A program made the position numbers and the translations under genes. Positions 6,129 to 35,022 of a stretch of DNA of 36,416 bases are shown here, one piece after another. The stretch is from NCBI GenBank assembly GCA_947624355.1, contig CANQKI010000014.1, positions 1 through 36,416 of the forward strand. The letters run 5' to 3'. Position 1 is the stretch's first letter. Each line of letters opens with the position of its first letter. The notes beneath the pieces were generated by a model. It saw nothing but the letters and a program-made list of their open reading frames with translations, was not told where the DNA came from and ran no database searches. Source of the stretch: an uncultured Clostridia bacterium (GTDB lineage Bacteria; Bacillota; Clostridia; Christensenellales; Aristaeellaceae).

Positions 6129-6130
6129 CG

Positions 6131-6325
6131 GATATCCCAAAGTGCCGCTGCCCCTATTTTTTCACCCGCTATGTTAAGCAGGCCGGTACCCTGCGGCGGA
6201 TTTCTGCCGTCCCCTGGCATGCCCGAGAGCACGGGGGCATGACATCTGGCCGCTCGACGCGGGTTCCGTTATGTGAAATGTGGGTAAAAACAGGAAACTG
6301 GCGAACACCCCAGGATCGTCCTTCC
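6131..6325 (-). ncRNA. ssrS: 6S RNA
   Basis: A transcript of about 195 nt lies between a perfect promoter and a terminator, with no open frame of its own. Its 5' segment (minus strand 6317-6306) reads GATCCTGGGGTG and is followed by TTCGCC. Its 3' segment reads GGCAGCGGCACTTTGGGAT (about 6151-6133). The two ends pair through at least 11 bp including G-U pairs, the same closing stem with internal loop seen in E. coli 6S (GATGTTCGC / GCGGCATC). The middle is a long irregular rod with an AU-rich bulge, as expected for a promoter mimic. 6S RNA binds sigma-A RNA polymerase holoenzyme and damps transcription in stationary phase. The 5' end is inferred from the promoter and could be a few bases off. 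Confidence 0.8.
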
Positions 6326-29610: not shown

Positions 29611-30315
29611 TCAGTGCTTCACGCGGAACAGGCCGCGGTTGGTGGTGCGTTTGGCCAGGAAATTGCCCAGGGTCTGCAGCAGGAACACCAGCACCAGCAG
29701 CACGATGACGCACACGTTCACAATGTCCTGATGATTCTGGTTCTGGCCGTAATTGATGGCAAAGCTGCCGATGCCGCCTGCGCCCACGGCCCCGGCCATG
29801 GTGGTCAGGCCAATGAGGCTGATAGCCGTCACGGTGGTGACGCGGATGATCTCGGGCACCGCTTCATGCAGGTACACCCGGAACACCAGGCCCCAGGTGC
29901 CGCTGCCCATGCTGCGGGCCGCCTCGATCTTGCCCGGGTCCACGCCGGAGATCGCCACCTCCACCTGCCGGGTGTAAAAGGGCACCGTGCCGAACACCAG
30001 GGGCAGAATGGCCCCCTTTACCCCGATGGCCGTACCCACCACGGCGCGGGTCAGGGGAATGAGGAAAATGAGAAGAATCAAAAAGGGAATGGAGCGGAAC
30101 ACGTTCACCACCACGTTGGTGATCTGGTACACAATGGGGTTTTCCCACACGCCGCCCTTCCGGGTAATGACCAACAGCACGCCGAACAACATGCCGATCA
30201 CAAAAGCGATGAGCCCGGCTTTCAGAAACATTTCCCCCGTAGCCGAACAGCTGGTTAAAAAGCGGGTGCGGTAGGCGTACAAGTTCGGCGCGATTTGCTT
30301 GATAAACTCTCCCAT
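29611..30315 (-). CDS. metI: Methionine ABC transporter permease MetI
   Basis: This 234-residue permease has about five transmembrane helices (first near 30-50) and a binding-protein-dependent transport signature in the central cytoplasmic loop, EAARSMGSGTWGLVFRVYLHEAVPEI, quoted here in two parts: EAARSMGSGTW and GLVFRVYLHEAVP. Phrases such as FRSIPFLILLIFLIPLTR match MetI closely. The start ATG shares one base with the metN stop (TGATG), so translation is coupled. The N-terminus is slightly longer than in E. coli MetI. Confidence 0.95.
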   Translation of the reverse strand: MGEFIKQIAPNLYAYRTRFLTSCSATGEMFLKAGLIAFVIGMLFGVLLVITRKGGVWENPIVYQITNVVVNVFRSIPFLILLIFLIPLTRAVVGTAIGVKGAILPLVFGTVPFYTRQVEVAISGVDPGKIEAARSMGSGTWGLVFRVYLHEAVPEIIRVTTVTAISLIGLTTMAGAVGAGGIGSFAINYGQNQNHQDIVNVCVIVLLVLVFLLQTLGNFLAKRTTNRGLFRVKH

Positions 30316-31391
30316 CAGTTCAGCACCTCGGTTCCCACATGATTCTCATTCAGGTATGCAAGGGCGGCGGCCACGTCTTCCTCTTTGCCGCTCAGGATGG
30401 CCACCAGGCCGCCCAGGGTGCTGTCCTGCAGGATCTCCACGTTGGCCAGCACGATATTGAGATCGACGTTGTAATTCCGGGCCACGGTGGTGATCAGGTG
30501 ATCCCCCACGCAGTCGTTGCCGAAGGTCAGGCGGATAAGCTTTTCCCCGGGCTTGGTCTGCACCAGCTGGGACTTGCTTTCCACCAGGGTGTCGACCTTG
30601 CTGAGGGCAGAGGCCGAGGCCACAAAGCGCTTGGCGATGGGCGTTTGCGGATTGGCGAACACGTCGTACACGTCGCCCTCCTCCACCACGCGCCCGTCCT
30701 CCATCACGGCCACCCGGCGGCAGATGGTTTTGATGACCGCCATTTCGTGGGTGATGAGCACGATGGTCAGGTGCAGCTTCTCGTTCAGTTCCTTAAGCAG
30801 GTTGAGAATGGCCGCCGTGGCGTCCGGGTCCAGGGCGCTGGTAGCCTCGTCGGAAAGCAGGATTTTGGGATTGCTGGCCAAAGCCCGGGCGATGGCCACC
30901 CGCTGCTTCTGTCCGCCGGACAGCTGGGAGGGGTATACGTCCTTTTTCTCCGTCAGCCCCACCAGCTCCAGCATTTCCAGCACCCGGGCGCGGATCGCGT
31001 CCTTCTTCATGCCGGAATACCGAAGGGGGTAAGCCACGTTTTCAAACACGGTGCTGCGGTCCAGCAGGTTAAAGTGCTGGAAAATCATGCCCACGCCCCG
31101 GCGGAGGGCGTTTTGTTCCTTGCGGCTCATGGGGCGCTTGCCGCCCTTGTCGGCAATGTACGCCCGGCCGTTTTCAAAGGTCATTTCCGGCGAATCGCCC
31201 ACGCGCAGGCTGCCGCCGTCCGGGATTTCCAACAGGTTCAGGCACCGAACCAGCGTGGATTTGCCTGCGCCGGAATAGCCGATCACGCCGTAAATTTCCC
31301 CGTCCTCCACGGTCAGGGACACGTCCTGCACGGCGTCCACGTCGCCGCCCTTTTGCTTGAAAGTCTTGCTCAGATTCTTGATCTCGATCAT
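30315..31391 (-). CDS. metN: Methionine ABC transporter ATP-binding protein MetN
   Basis: This 358-residue ATPase has Walker A GYSGAGKST (38-46), signature LSGGQKQR, Walker B ILLSDEATSALD and an H-loop LITHEM. The C-terminal 100 residues (about 260-358) form the NIL/ACT-like domain that in E. coli MetN binds methionine and shuts the transporter (trans-inhibition). A run of residues inserted before KEQNALRRGVGMIFQ (about 72-88) is longer than in most MetN. The ribosome site (GGAG, about 13 nt upstream) is poor. An intrinsic terminator lies between metQ and this gene, so expression should be lower than metQ. Confidence 0.95.
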   Translation of the reverse strand: MIEIKNLSKTFKQKGGDVDAVQDVSLTVEDGEIYGVIGYSGAGKSTLVRCLNLLEIPDGGSLRVGDSPEMTFENGRAYIADKGGKRPMSRKEQNALRRGVGMIFQHFNLLDRSTVFENVAYPLRYSGMKKDAIRARVLEMLELVGLTEKKDVYPSQLSGGQKQRVAIARALASNPKILLSDEATSALDPDATAAILNLLKELNEKLHLTIVLITHEMAVIKTICRRVAVMEDGRVVEEGDVYDVFANPQTPIAKRFVASASALSKVDTLVESKSQLVQTKPGEKLIRLTFGNDCVGDHLITTVARNYNVDLNIVLANVEILQDSTLGGLVAILSGKEEDVAAALAYLNENHVGTEVLN

Positions 31392-31473: not shown

Positions 31474-32427
31474 TTATTTCACCAGCCCGGCCGCGTCCTT
31501 CAGCGCGTCCAGGGATTCAAAGTTCTTGGAGTACAGGGACAGGGGCGCGATCAGCGTGTCGCCGATGACAGTGAGATCATAGCCGTTCACGTCGATTTCG
31601 TTCTGCAGGAAAGCCTTGTGCTGGAAGGAGTTCAGGTCGATTTCGCCGCTGTTCAAGGCTTCGTTGGGCAGGGTGTAGGCGTCAAATTCCACCAGTTCAA
31701 TATAGATGTTGGCGCCCTCGTCGTCCAGCACTTTCTGCACGGCCTTCCACTGGTCGTTCTGGGAGCCGCACACGCCCACCTTCACCACCGTCTTGCCGTC
31801 CTTGGGGGATTCATAGGAAACGATTTCCTGGGCCACTTCGGGGGTGACGGTAAATTCGGCCTCGGCGTCATAGGGGAAGGCCGGGAAGTAGGATTCGGCA
31901 TAATTGACCAGCAGGAATTCGGCCACCAGCTGGGTCTGGTACGCTTCCACGATGGTCTTGTAGGTTTCGTTGTCCTTTTCTTCCGTCCGGGCCACGATGA
32001 TGTTCACGAAGGGGTTTTCCGCGCCCTCGTCCTGCTTTTCAATGAGCAGCGCGTCCTTGGAGGGCTTGAGGCCGGCGGAGGTGGCATAGGTGCCGTTGAT
32101 GGTGCTGGCGGCATAGTCGTCCAGGGTCGCGGGCAGGGTGTTGGCAGCCACAGGCATGATTTCAATATTGTAAATGTACTTGGTTACGTCCTTGACTTCG
32201 GGGGTGAAGCCCACGGCGGGGTCAACCTCAATGAGGCCGGCGGTTTCCAGCAGCTTGATGGCGCGGGAAAGGTTGGTGCCGTCGTCGGGCACGCCGATCT
32301 TTTGGGGTTCCCCGGCCGGCTTGGAGGAAGAGGACGTAATCAGAACGGCAGCCACAACAACGGCCGCGATGACCAGCACAACGATTACGGCAATCAGGAT
32401 CTTTTTCTTGGCAGACAGGTTCTTCAT
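31474..32427 (-). CDS. metQ: Circularly permuted, membrane-anchored MetQ-type methionine-binding protein
   Basis: This 317-residue protein has an N-terminal transmembrane anchor (about 9-30) and no lipobox Cys. The NlpA/MetQ sequence then appears in swapped order. Residues 43-175 match the normally C-terminal half: KIGVPDDGTNLSRA, STINGTYATSAGL, NPFVNIIVART. After a new linker (about 176-213), residues 214-317 match the normally N-terminal half: VVKVGVCGSQ, VEFDAYTLPNEAL, GEIDLNSFQHKAF, PLSLYSKNFESLDAL. The chain stops where a normal MetQ would run into its PNDPTN segment. All expected pieces are present, and the two cut ends meet in a conventional MetQ, so a folded two-lobe protein is plausible. 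metN and metI downstream confirm the methionine system. AAGGAG precedes the ATG, which overlaps the stop of a 33-codon ORF. Confidence 0.88.
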   Translation of the reverse strand: MKNLSAKKKILIAVIVVLVIAAVVVAAVLITSSSSKPAGEPQKIGVPDDGTNLSRAIKLLETAGLIEVDPAVGFTPEVKDVTKYIYNIEIMPVAANTLPATLDDYAASTINGTYATSAGLKPSKDALLIEKQDEGAENPFVNIIVARTEEKDNETYKTIVEAYQTQLVAEFLLVNYAESYFPAFPYDAEAEFTVTPEVAQEIVSYESPKDGKTVVKVGVCGSQNDQWKAVQKVLDDEGANIYIELVEFDAYTLPNEALNSGEIDLNSFQHKAFLQNEIDVNGYDLTVIGDTLIAPLSLYSKNFESLDALKDAAGLVK

Positions 32428-32525
32428 GATGCAATCTCCTTTTTCATGTTTTTTCGGGGATGGAACAGGGAATATGGGCGATCCGACATTCGATCCTTCA
32501 CCCAGCCCACATGCAGCCCGGCCAT
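32424..32525 (-). CDS. Short ORF coupled to metQ (33 codons)
   Basis: This ORF lies between the attenuator terminator and metQ. It starts ATG 32525 behind AAGGAAG with 7-nt spacing, and its TGA stop overlaps the metQ ATG (ATGA). The peptide begins MAGLHVGWVKDRMSD and ends KKEIAS; it has no recognised domain, signal peptide or amino-acid bias. The good ribosome site and exact stop-start overlap suggest a role in translational coupling rather than a product with its own function. It could also be fortuitous. Confidence 0.45.
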   Translation of the reverse strand: MAGLHVGWVKDRMSDRPYSLFHPRKNMKKEIAS

Positions 32526-32541
32526 GGAATCACTTCCTTGC

Positions 32542-32579
32542 AATAAAAATCGGAGGGCCCCACGCGGCGGCCCTCCGAT
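32542..32579 (-). terminator. Attenuator terminator of the met operon leader
   Basis: On the minus strand, an 11-bp perfect stem (arms 32579-32569 and 32559-32549, ATCGGAGGGCC / GGCCCTCCGAT) with a 9-nt loop is followed by TTTTATT. It lies 28 nt after the stop of the Met-rich leader peptide and upstream of metQ, so it must be bypassed for operon expression. The loop and first stem base contain CGCGTGGG, complementary to an upstream leader segment. Confidence 0.85.
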
Positions 32580-32606
32580 CAGAATCACAATCCGATCACG
32601 CAGGCG

Positions 32607-32687
32607 TCAAACGCATGGGAAAGCGGAGCACATGCTCATGCACATGCCCATGCGCATCATCATCGCCCGGTTCTGCAAAGATGCCAT
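32607..32687 (-). CDS. Methionine-rich leader peptide (attenuation sensor)
   Basis: This 26-codon ORF has eight Met and three Cys. Met codons are at positions 1, 9, 10, 11, 13, 15, 17 and 19, and Cys at 16, 20 and 25. It starts ATG 32687 with AAGGAAGG 8 nt upstream and begins about 27 nt after the expected transcription start. Codons 12-14 contain CGCATGGG (32654-32647), which pairs perfectly with CCCATGCG (32619-32612), 2 nt before the stop. That second segment can instead pair with CGCGTGGG (32566-32559) in the downstream terminator. A ribosome stalled for lack of charged tRNA-Met would free the second segment and favour read-through; one reaching the stop would mask it and allow termination. 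This is inferred from architecture. Confidence 0.8.
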   Translation of the reverse strand: MASLQNRAMMMRMGMCMSMCSAFPCV

Positions 32688-32720
32688 GGCGTCCGCCTTC
32701 CTTTCCGCGTTGATGGTGTT

Positions 32721-32749
32721 ATTATAAACGGTCTTCCCTGCCCTGTCAA
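32721..32749 (-). promoter_or_regulatory. Consensus promoter of the met operon
   Basis: On the minus strand, TTGACA (32749-32744) and TATAAT (32726-32721) are 17 bp apart, a full consensus. Initiation is expected near 32714. No palindromic operator overlaps it, and the leader lacks the conserved SAM-I (S-box) or Met T-box features. Strong constitutive initiation with control by the downstream attenuator is therefore the likely logic. Confidence 0.85.
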
Positions 32750-32808
32750 TACCAAAACAATCAAAATACAAAAATAATTTATGTTCGCCTTTTTCGTGCC
32801 GATTTCCC

Positions 32809-32837
32809 TTGACACAGACGCGTTTTGGCGGTATAAT
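32809..32837 (+). promoter_or_regulatory. Consensus promoter of thrS
   Basis: TTGACA (32809-32814) and TATAAT (32832-32837) are 17 bp apart. Transcription should start near 32844, a few bases before the T-box Stem I. It is divergent from the met operon promoter, with the two -35 boxes about 60 bp apart in an AT-rich stretch. Confidence 0.85.
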
Positions 32838-32844
32838 ACACCCG

Positions 32845-33082
32845 TCTTCGGAATGACGGAGGACATGTTTTCCGCAAATGCGGCCTTCAGAGAGGCGGGC
32901 GCTCGGTGCGAGCCTGCCAGGCAGCGCGGCGGAAGGTACCGCCTCCCGACCAAAGGCCGCGCCGCGCACGTTACGCGCGCTGAAAGCGGCCCGTTTCGGC
33001 GGGCAAAAAGGGTGGAACCGCGGGCAGCGAAGCAGTTTCGCGCTCGTCCCTTCATGAACAATGAACGGGACGGGCGTTTTTT
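32845..33082 (+). promoter_or_regulatory. T-box leader, threonine-specific
   Basis: Stem I opens at GAATGACGGAGGACA (from 32851). It includes CAGAGAGGCGGGC with GGTGCGAG at its head, and closes with GCCTCC (32941-32946) pairing GGAGG. The specifier ACC (32938-32940), a Thr codon, lies just before that closing strand. The invariant T-box AGGGTGGAACCGCGGG is at 33009-33024, with the TGGAACC bulge that binds the tRNA acceptor end. An intrinsic terminator follows: GCTCGTCCC/GGGACGGGC plus TTCAT/ATGAA (33042-33075), then six T (33077-33082). Uncharged tRNA-Thr would stabilise the antiterminator and switch thrS on. The specifier matches the downstream gene. Confidence 0.92.
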
Positions 33083-33117
33083 CTTGCCCCGCCCCCACGC
33101 AAGAAGGAGGAAAAACC

Positions 33118-35022
33118 ATGCTGATTACCCTCAAAAACGGCGCCCGGGAATTTGAAAATGGCATGAGCGCCCTGGACATCGCCGGGCAGCTGAGCCAGGA
33201 GCTCAAAAAGCAGGCCATCTGCGCCCGGGTGGACGGGGAAATCCAGGAGCTGTGGAAGCCCATCGACCGGGACTGCGCCCTGGAAATCCTGACCTTTGAC
33301 GACGACGACGCCAAGCGCGTGCTGCGCCACACGGCCTCCCATGTGCTGGCCCAGGCCGTCAAGAAGCTGCGGCCCGAAGCCAAGCTGGCCATCGGCCCGG
33401 CCATCGACAACGGCTTCTATTACGACTTTGACGTGGACGAACCCTTCACCCCCGAATTTCTGACAGCGGTCGAAAAGGAAATGAAGAAGATCGTGCAAAA
33501 AAACGACCAGCTGGAGCGGTTCGAGCTGCCGCGGGAAGAAGCCATCAGATTCATGGAAGAAAAAGGCGAGCCCTACAAGGTGGAGCTGATCCGCGACCTG
33601 CCCCAGGACGCCGTTATTTCCTTCTATAAGCAGGGGGATTTTACCGACCTGTGCGCCGGCCCTCATGTGCCCTCCACCGGCAAGGTAAAGGCCTTCAAGC
33701 TCACCTCCATCGCCGGGGCGTACTGGCGCGGCAGCGAAAAGAACAAGATGCTCCAGCGCATTTACGGCACGGCTTTCACCAATAAGGAAGACCTGGACGC
33801 TTACCTCCAGCGCCTGGAGGAAGCGAAGAAGCGGGATCACCGCCGCTTGGGCCGGGAGCTGGACCTTTTCGACGTGCGGGATGAGGGCCCCGGCTTCCCC
33901 TTCTTCTATCCCAAGGGCATGATCCTGCGGAACATCCTGGAGGATTACTGGCGGCAGATTCACCGGGCGGCGGGCTATGAGGAAATCAAGACCCCCATTA
34001 TGCTCAACCGCGCCCTGTGGGAGCGTTCGGGCCACTGGGATCACTACCGGGAGAATATGTACACTACCAAAATCGACGAGACCGATTTTGCCATCAAGCC
34101 CATGAACTGCCCCGGCGGCATGCTGGTGTACCAGCGCAAGCAGTGGAGCTACCGGGACCTGCCCATCCGCTCGGGCGAACTGGGGCTGGTGCACCGGCAT
34201 GAGCTGTCCGGCACCTTGCACGGCCTCATGCGTGTGCGGTGCTTCACCCAGGACGACGCCCACATTTTCATGACCCCCGAACAGATCCGGGACGAAATCA
34301 AGGGCGTATACAAGCTCATCGACAGCGTGTATTCCACCTTCGGCTTCCCCTACAAAGTGGAGCTTTCCACCCGCCCGGAAAACTCCATCGGCACGGACGA
34401 AATGTGGGAAATGGCCACCAACGGATTGCAGGGCGCGCTGGACGATCTGGGGGTGCCGTATGTCATCAACGAGGGCGACGGCGCTTTCTACGGCCCCAAG
34501 ATCGACTTCCACCTGGAGGATTGCCTGGGCCGCACCTGGCAGTGCGGCACCATTCAGCTGGATATGAACCTGCCCGAGCGCTTTGACCTGACCTATGTGG
34601 GCGCGGACGGCGAAAAGCACCGGCCCGTCATGATTCACCGGGTGGTGTTCGGCTCCATCGAGCGCTTCATCGGCATCCTGACCGAGCATTTCGCCGGGGC
34701 CTATCCCCTGTGGCTGGCCCCCGTGCAGGTAAAGGTGCTCACCATCACCGACCGGGCCGACGAGGCCGCGAAGCAGGTGCAGGCTACCCTGGAGGAAGAG
34801 GGGATCCGCACGGAAATCGACCTGCGCAACGAAAAGATCGGTTTCAAGGTGCGCGAGGCCGTGATGATGAAGATTCCCTACATGCTGGTGCTGGGCGACA
34901 AGGAAGTGGAGGATGGCACGGTGAACGTGCGCACCCGCAAGGGCGAGGTCATCGGCACCATGAAGCTGGACGAAGCCATCCGCCTGTTCAAGGAAGAAAT
35001 CAAAACCAAAGCAATCAAATAA
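33118..35022 (+). CDS. thrS: Threonyl-tRNA synthetase
   Basis: This 634-residue enzyme has an N-terminal TGS domain (about 1-60) and an editing/SAD domain with HxxxH (His71, His75). The class II catalytic core has the zinc ligands Cys331 (NCPGGM), His382 and His507. The C-terminal anticodon-binding domain spans about 535-634. ATG 33118 follows AAGGAGG directly. An in-frame ATG at 33061 is rejected because it lies inside the T-box terminator. The gene is controlled by the Thr-specific T-box upstream. Repeat copy B starts 1 nt after the stop. Confidence 0.97.
   Translation: MLITLKNGAREFENGMSALDIAGQLSQELKKQAICARVDGEIQELWKPIDRDCALEILTFDDDDAKRVLRHTASHVLAQAVKKLRPEAKLAIGPAIDNGFYYDFDVDEPFTPEFLTAVEKEMKKIVQKNDQLERFELPREEAIRFMEEKGEPYKVELIRDLPQDAVISFYKQGDFTDLCAGPHVPSTGKVKAFKLTSIAGAYWRGSEKNKMLQRIYGTAFTNKEDLDAYLQRLEEAKKRDHRRLGRELDLFDVRDEGPGFPFFYPKGMILRNILEDYWRQIHRAAGYEEIKTPIMLNRALWERSGHWDHYRENMYTTKIDETDFAIKPMNCPGGMLVYQRKQWSYRDLPIRSGELGLVHRHELSGTLHGLMRVRCFTQDDAHIFMTPEQIRDEIKGVYKLIDSVYSTFGFPYKVELSTRPENSIGTDEMWEMATNGLQGALDDLGVPYVINEGDGAFYGPKIDFHLEDCLGRTWQCGTIQLDMNLPERFDLTYVGADGEKHRPVMIHRVVFGSIERFIGILTEHFAGAYPLWLAPVQVKVLTITDRADEAAKQVQATLEEEGIRTEIDLRNEKIGFKVREAVMMKIPYMLVLGDKEVEDGTVNVRTRKGEVIGTMKLDEAIRLFKEEIKTKAIK

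Follow-up and report, generated by a model that had tools for sequence, protein, structure and literature searches.

We propose that the methionine-rich leader located upstream of metQ, metN and metI in the window (the whole stretch of DNA analysed, 36,416 nucleotides) is a ribosome-mediated transcription attenuator that reads the methionine supply, and we give this reading a probability of roughly 0.84. Such an attenuator would sense charged tRNA-Met, and perhaps cysteine too. The same mechanism had been suggested earlier from the letters alone (the sequence-only reading), and it is supported by the anatomy of the leader, by its recurrence, by its operon specificity and by a collective antiterminator bias.

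Anatomy of the leader and its operon

All the elements of the leader are on the minus strand. A sigma-70-type promoter, TTGACA-17-TATAAT, which matches the consensus at 12/12 positions, is found at 32721..32749 (-) and is followed by a Shine-Dalgarno region, GGAAAGGAAGG, at 32696..32706 (-). The Met-rich leader ORF, MASLQNRAMMMRMGMCMSMCSAFPCV, occupies 32607..32687 (-) and has 26 codons, including 8 for Met (codons 1, 9, 10, 11, 13, 15, 17 and 19) and 3 for Cys (codons 16, 20 and 25). We consider the leader a putative translatable short ORF with a ribosome site. The regulatory codons would be codons 9-19, seven of them for Met and one (codon 16) for Cys, at 32631..32663 (-) as calculated from the codon numbers. 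Among the 392 short ORFs of 15-45 aa in the window, this is the only one with at least 5 Met within 11 codons.

Regarding the RNA elements, three segments can be paired in two ways. Segment 1, CGCATGGG, at 32647..32654 (-), is complementary by inspection to segment 2, CCCATGCG, which is located at the end of the leader ORF (32612..32619, -), and segment 3, CGCGTGGG, in the loop and 3' arm of the terminator (32559..32566, -), is the candidate antiterminator partner of segment 2. The intrinsic terminator hairpin and its T tract extend over 32543..32580 (-), the hairpin being 32580-32547, with a folding energy of -26.6 kcal/mol and the tail TTTTTATT. The full-consensus promoter, the ORF with its 26 codons, 8 Met (7 of them in codons 9-19) and 3 Cys, and the three pairable segments are exactly where the sequence-only reading had placed them. 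The terminator and its T tract were also found as described, but the stem is not of 11 bp, since the fold has 14 pairs and one bulged base.

The genes downstream are those of methionine uptake, as had been noted: metQ, a methionine-binding lipoprotein (NlpA lipoprotein) at 31474..32427 (-), metN, an ABC ATPase with a NIL domain at 30315..31391 (-), and metI, the permease, at 29611..30315 (-). An M20 peptidase and then SfsA follow them. Between the terminator and metQ there is a second small ORF that begins with MAGLHVGWVKDRM (32424..32525, -; an alternative start exists further upstream) and whose stop overlaps the metQ start. The motif V-C/K-D-R-M is present in the second mini-ORFs of four loci, namely the window, L033 (2795-2872), L034 (2547-2615) and L043 (1367-1420). 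A different small ORF upstream of metQ, MRNRQSANIAAWLSLCRMCPALTPHS, without a Met cluster, was seen in L103 (481-561, -). Elsewhere in the window a 6S RNA is encoded at 6130-6319 (-; Rfam RF00013, 61.4 bits).

Judging from the protein alignment, the MetQ of the window is circularly permuted, with its two halves swapped and an exact junction: residues 213-313 match residues 31-131 of E. coli MetQ (4yah), and residues 43-170 match 132-257. Permuted MetQ proteins were also seen in L033-L037, L043-L045, L047 and L049, and the permuted order is common to nine relatives from separate assemblies that were aligned end to end, with 31-70% identity to the window MetQ. No paper among the literature matches listed has permuted MetQ as its subject, by title. 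In L060 (7447-9087) ordinary metQ genes form a tandem pair downstream of a Met leader, and the permuted MetQ query matched across this pair. The permutation could have arisen from such a duplication.

Recurrence and operon specificity of the leader

The sequence-only reading had proposed comparing the upstream regions of related metQ genes. We gathered 18 loci by similarity of the MetQ protein, without using the leader as a query: 10 came from named genomes and 8 from a draw of 396 genomes of the order (E up to 1e-30, the window included). In 11 of the 18 a Met-rich short ORF and an intrinsic terminator are located at the operon start (the window, L033, L034, L036, L037, L043, L044, L045, L046, L047 and L049). 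Some loci were read on extended stretches, specifically L044 in L058, L045 in L059, L046 in L060, L049 in L064 and L048 in L061. A T-box was found instead in three loci (L035, L038 and L039) and a SAM riboswitch in one (L041), while the other three (L040, L042 and L048, read in L061) had no recognised regulator within the stretch examined. The layout of the recurring leaders is constant and their sequences are different. In the Met-rich leader of L036 (2839-2913) a terminator-like hairpin overlaps the end of the ORF and its Met codons, therefore its switching logic must differ from that of the other leaders.

Within the window's genus the picture is another one. MetQ found matches in 28 of 29 genomes, the window's genome included. 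In the 27 others the 29 matching loci resemble it weakly, the best reaching 45% identity across a portion of the protein; the match in L008 of G022 spans all of MetQ, at 30% identity. Near these MetQ matches (29 loci, 27 genomes, flanks to about 1.5 kb) we found no Met-rich short ORF with a T tract. The nearest relatives of the window locus are L033 and L034, in the family genomes G1036 and G931. The weak matches and the missing leader in the genus suggest that the window locus probably came from another part of the family.

At the family level PF03180 matched 278 of 308 genomes (E up to 1e-10). From the strongest full-length matches listed we picked, for genus spread, 40 further metQ loci in 38 genomes, and therefore this sample contains mostly or only unpermuted metQ. 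A Met leader stands on the operon in 17 of the 40 (L074, L075, L079, L081, L091, L092, L095, L097, L098, L100, L101, L104, L105, L108, L109, L110 and L112), so the proposed comparison speaks for the sequence-only reading. The operons behind the leaders are metQ, metNIQ or metA-metNIQ; in L081, for instance, the leader precedes metA (homoserine O-succinyltransferase) and then metN. In L076 and L077 the Met leader is divergent from metN. The other loci were 18 without a Met leader and three outside the scoring (L099, L102 and L111), where a contig end cuts the locus or the operon start is missing. Two additional Met leaders, L069 and L136, were met in profile searches.

Two side observations concern these loci. 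Downstream of the Met leader of L076 and L077 (and of L114 and L115) comes a small ORF with RM repeats at its end. The next gene in L077 is a DUF218 gene, and L114 encodes a similar protein. L073 and L087 lack a Met leader; at their promoters there are palindrome-like stretches (about 3331-3360 in L073 and about 1616-1650 in L087), for example CCGATAGGAATTGCGTAATTCC, and it looks as if a repressor had replaced the leader there.

In order to measure specificity we used an automatic rule, devised after leaders had been seen, that looks for a short ORF of 15-45 aa with at least 4 Met in any run of 11 codons past the start, an SD-like sequence and a terminator within about 105 nt. Applied to both strands of the 40 family loci (140,295 bases), it gave 17 matches, 15 of them on leader-bearing operons and 2 divergent beside metN, and none away from leader operons or a metN neighbour; it missed the leaders L091 and L105. 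The same rule was run with 12 control residues. There were no matches for W, H, F, K, N and Y, and 2 for I, 1 each for D, Q and T, 9 for P and 2 for C, both of the latter being Met leaders.

The leader set analysed comprises 31 distinct leaders, after leaving out L108 (same peptide as L060) and L113 and L118 (same loci as L033 and L034). Promoters matching at least 10/12 positions were found in 19 of the 31, in a search limited to 70 nt upstream, and the terminator was detected automatically in 29 and by eye in the other two (L101 and L109). Met represents 21.3% of the residues after the start, although the leaders were selected for Met richness and this content is itself no test. Cys was no selection criterion, and it represents 9.8% of the residues, is present in 29 of the 31 leaders (at least twice in 22) and is encoded by TGC in 63 of 80 codons. 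The earlier remark that the Cys codons could add a sensing of sulfur limitation gains weight from these values. They favour a refinement of the attenuator rather than a competitor to it, in which cysteine would be sensed along with methionine, and thus the total of sulfur amino acids. However, the Met clusters are denser than the Cys codons, and pairing with the terminator (UGCG with CGCA) may be the reason why UGC persists; on balance we regard this refinement as possible but doubtful.

We also searched for the leader more widely. A leader profile, A1, found 7 of 391 class genomes (E up to 0.1), of which we judged the window and G031 to be real, and profile A2 found 26 of 308 family genomes (E up to 1) but not the leader of the window itself, and cannot serve as a census. 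The pattern ATGATGATGCGNATG occurred at 26 places in 22 of 398 phylum genomes (4 in the reversed control), a count that is no measure of spread, as the pattern covers some leaders only. An SD-like site, a frame of 12-45 codons and a terminator-like hairpin occur together at just three of the 26 places (the window, L147 and L160). The L147 peptide resembles that of L154, from another genome, and L147 and L160, judged on these three features, are candidate leaders. Spread beyond the family is therefore indicated by the same-order loci L047, L058, L059 and L064 and by two MAGs whose titles name Spirochaetales (L036) and Oscillospiraceae (L037) and which may be misbinned.

Predicted switching of the leader RNA

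The structure tests covered 30 leaders, excluding L036, where the terminator overlaps the ORF. We computed how much of the terminator 5' arm pairs with the upstream RNA that the ribosome leaves free. With the ribosome stalled at the Met codons the mean pairing probability was 0.69-0.74 and with the ribosome at the stop codon 0.17, a drop that is partly trivial because less RNA is free when the ribosome is at the stop. The best stalled value exceeded the stop value by more than 0.3 in 26 of the 30 leaders.

With a ribosome placed on the Met codons, the antiterminator was more stable than in shuffled sequences when the leaders were taken together: mean z -1.46, Stouffer -8.0, with p<0.05 in 10 of 30, and Stouffer -6.3 for 21 representatives, values that overstate the significance because the leaders are related. 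The leaders' own arms had a mean z of -1.48 (n=30) and arms taken across loci -0.50 (n=90), a difference with a nominal Mann-Whitney p of 5e-5. The cross-locus value implies that roughly one third of the effect is independent of the locus. A plain duplex test agreed more weakly (Stouffer -3.8, p<0.05 in 2 of 30, cross-locus mean z -0.05). Thus, antiterminator pairing of the kind that the sequence-only reading proposed is collectively stronger than both the shuffled and the cross-locus controls, although the window alone is no better than its own shuffles (antiterminator z +0.39, duplex z -0.39). The best segment-2 duplex begins within the ORF in 29 of 30 leaders, and a ribosome at the stop codon may cover part of it. 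By inspection, the antiterminator partner lies in the terminator loop in the window, where CCCATGCG pairs with CGCGTGGG, in L033 (CCGTGCG with CGCATGG) and in L034 (TCATGCG with CGCATGG).

Two other expectations are not supported. Covariation of the alternative pairings, named beforehand as a check, was not above shuffles in 9 related leaders: the score was 0.167 against 0.146 (reached by 130 of 500 shuffles), and 74.8% of the cells were paired against 71.8% (67 of 500). Slid structures had 34-56% of the cells paired, and one of them (+2) was equal in score. L060 and L069 were left out of alignment A5 because their arms were misaligned in A4. Furthermore, pairing of segments 1 and 2 had been expected to restore termination when the leader is not translated. 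However, in the untranslated leader the 5' arm is still predicted to be mostly paired upstream (mean 0.64 over the 30 leaders, 0.81 in the window), and on this prediction the pairing of segments 1 and 2 would not bring termination back. Some attenuators lack a protector pairing, and for this step we lower the claim to saying that the leader may work like an attenuator.

From the features above we infer that the leader is translated, that ribosomes stall in it, that polymerase reads through and that methionine supply is the signal. Transcription would begin at the strong promoter and a ribosome would translate the Met-rich leader. With ample Met-tRNA, the ribosome would reach the stop codon and cover segment 2, the terminator would form, and a short transcript would result, the importer not being made. 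When charged elongator tRNA-Met is scarce, the ribosome would stall in codons 9-19 and leave segment 2 free to pair with the 5' arm or the loop of the terminator, so that polymerase would read into metQ-metN-metI. With no translation at all, folding would favour the antiterminator-like state. The Cys codons may contribute a sensing of cysteine.

The folding results also bear on the idea that the terminator and the RNA fold alone matter and that the Met-rich ORF is incidental; the element would then be either a constitutive attenuator or a riboswitch of an undescribed kind. The leader RNA (32714-32540) is indeed more stable than its dinucleotide shuffles (z -3.6, none of 200 as good), the alternative pairing already exists in the untranslated leader, and the family uses SAM riboswitches, which we found in 127 of 150 genomes. 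However, the Met clusters and the SD persist in leaders whose sequences differ widely, and Rfam at E up to 1 gave no SAM riboswitch and no T-box on the window leader, where the weak matches were Xoo2 and SNORD94, both far under their gathering scores. The one SAM riboswitch copy found in the window's genome is upstream of metK. We consider this explanation very unlikely. Close to the leader there is a T-box ahead of thrS (32844-33054, +), which scores 61 bits against an Rfam gathering score of 93 and is absent from the default scan; it is the sole T-box in 32400-33130 and is on the strand opposite to the leader.

The T-boxes of L035, L038 and L039 help to suggest the signal. Their bulge is GAAGAUGG, which contains AUG, in our own reading the probable specifier codon. 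As L035 is a related permuted-MetQ operon with such a bulge, tRNA-Met is a plausible signal for the leader as well. A division of labour could follow, in which SAM would act on its own synthesis and charged tRNA-Met on the uptake of methionine.

The least likely explanation is that the leader peptide arrests translation as a nascent chain or, being rich in Met and Cys, senses a metal (copper), in which case its amino acids would matter and not the tRNA charging. Met and Cys make up 31% of the residues of the 31 leaders (which had been chosen for Met), peptides rich in these two residues are able to bind Cu(I) and a second peptide with the V-C/K-D-R-M motif follows in four loci, but the peptides are poorly conserved outside Met and Cys (mean column identity 30%), the regulated genes are those of Met uptake and metA and no metal genes, and a related operon carries a T-box.

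Returning to the methionine-reading attenuator, a broader picture may be outlined, although we hold it tentatively and would not expect all of it to stand. A lineage of Clostridia might have its own class of sulfur-amino-acid attenuators, in which leaders reading Met and Cys would control metNIQ and metA, the SAM riboswitch would keep metK, and the second mini-ORF with the V-C/K-D-R-M motif would act as a translational gate in some permuted-MetQ operons.

Comparison with known systems

Attenuation in response to amino acids is textbook regulation. As an amino acid to be read, methionine is unusual: its single codon, AUG, also serves initiation, and starvation should slow initiation too. The set of 31 leaders makes it testable how a leader could read the charging of elongator tRNA-Met without being misled by the initiator pool.

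We found no Met-reading leader among the open-access literature matches listed, in line with the sequence-only reading, whose author was not aware of one described in Clostridia, and there is no Met example in passages of PMC2965389, PMC1262725, PMC4833913, PMC1183508, PMC11550727, PMC9413887 and PMC3766115. Leader-peptide attenuation has long been known; methionine as the amino acid read appears to be new, although an earlier report is possible.

Leader-peptide transcription attenuators are described, in the available portions of PMC1183508 and PMC9413887, for the trp, his, thr, leu, ilv and phe operons. The present leader shares with the E. coli-type attenuators a short ORF with clustered regulatory codons, an intrinsic terminator and, as predicted, a competing antiterminator, whereas it would read Met, which has no synonymous codon and whose AUG doubles as the main start codon, and control uptake. 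In Firmicutes, His and Leu leader peptides have been proposed (PMC2965389, PMC9413887, PMC4833913 and PMC5794164, as far as their available text goes), the same proposed class of mechanism in Gram-positives, at positions that carry T-boxes in relatives; the present leaders differ from them in the amino acid and in the genes. The cysteine leader peptides of Actinobacteria are likewise encoded by short ORFs, with many codons for a sulfur amino acid, upstream of sulfur genes, but PMC1262725 reports no conserved terminator hairpins and no Met elements for them, whereas the present Met leaders have terminators. Finally, relatives have a T-box (RF00230; L035, L038 and L039) or a SAM riboswitch (RF00162; L041) in front of the met transport operon. 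They sense tRNA and SAM, respectively, directly by RNA and without a translated ORF, whereas the Met leader has an ORF. Thus, T-box, SAM riboswitch and leader peptide replace one another ahead of related transport operons.
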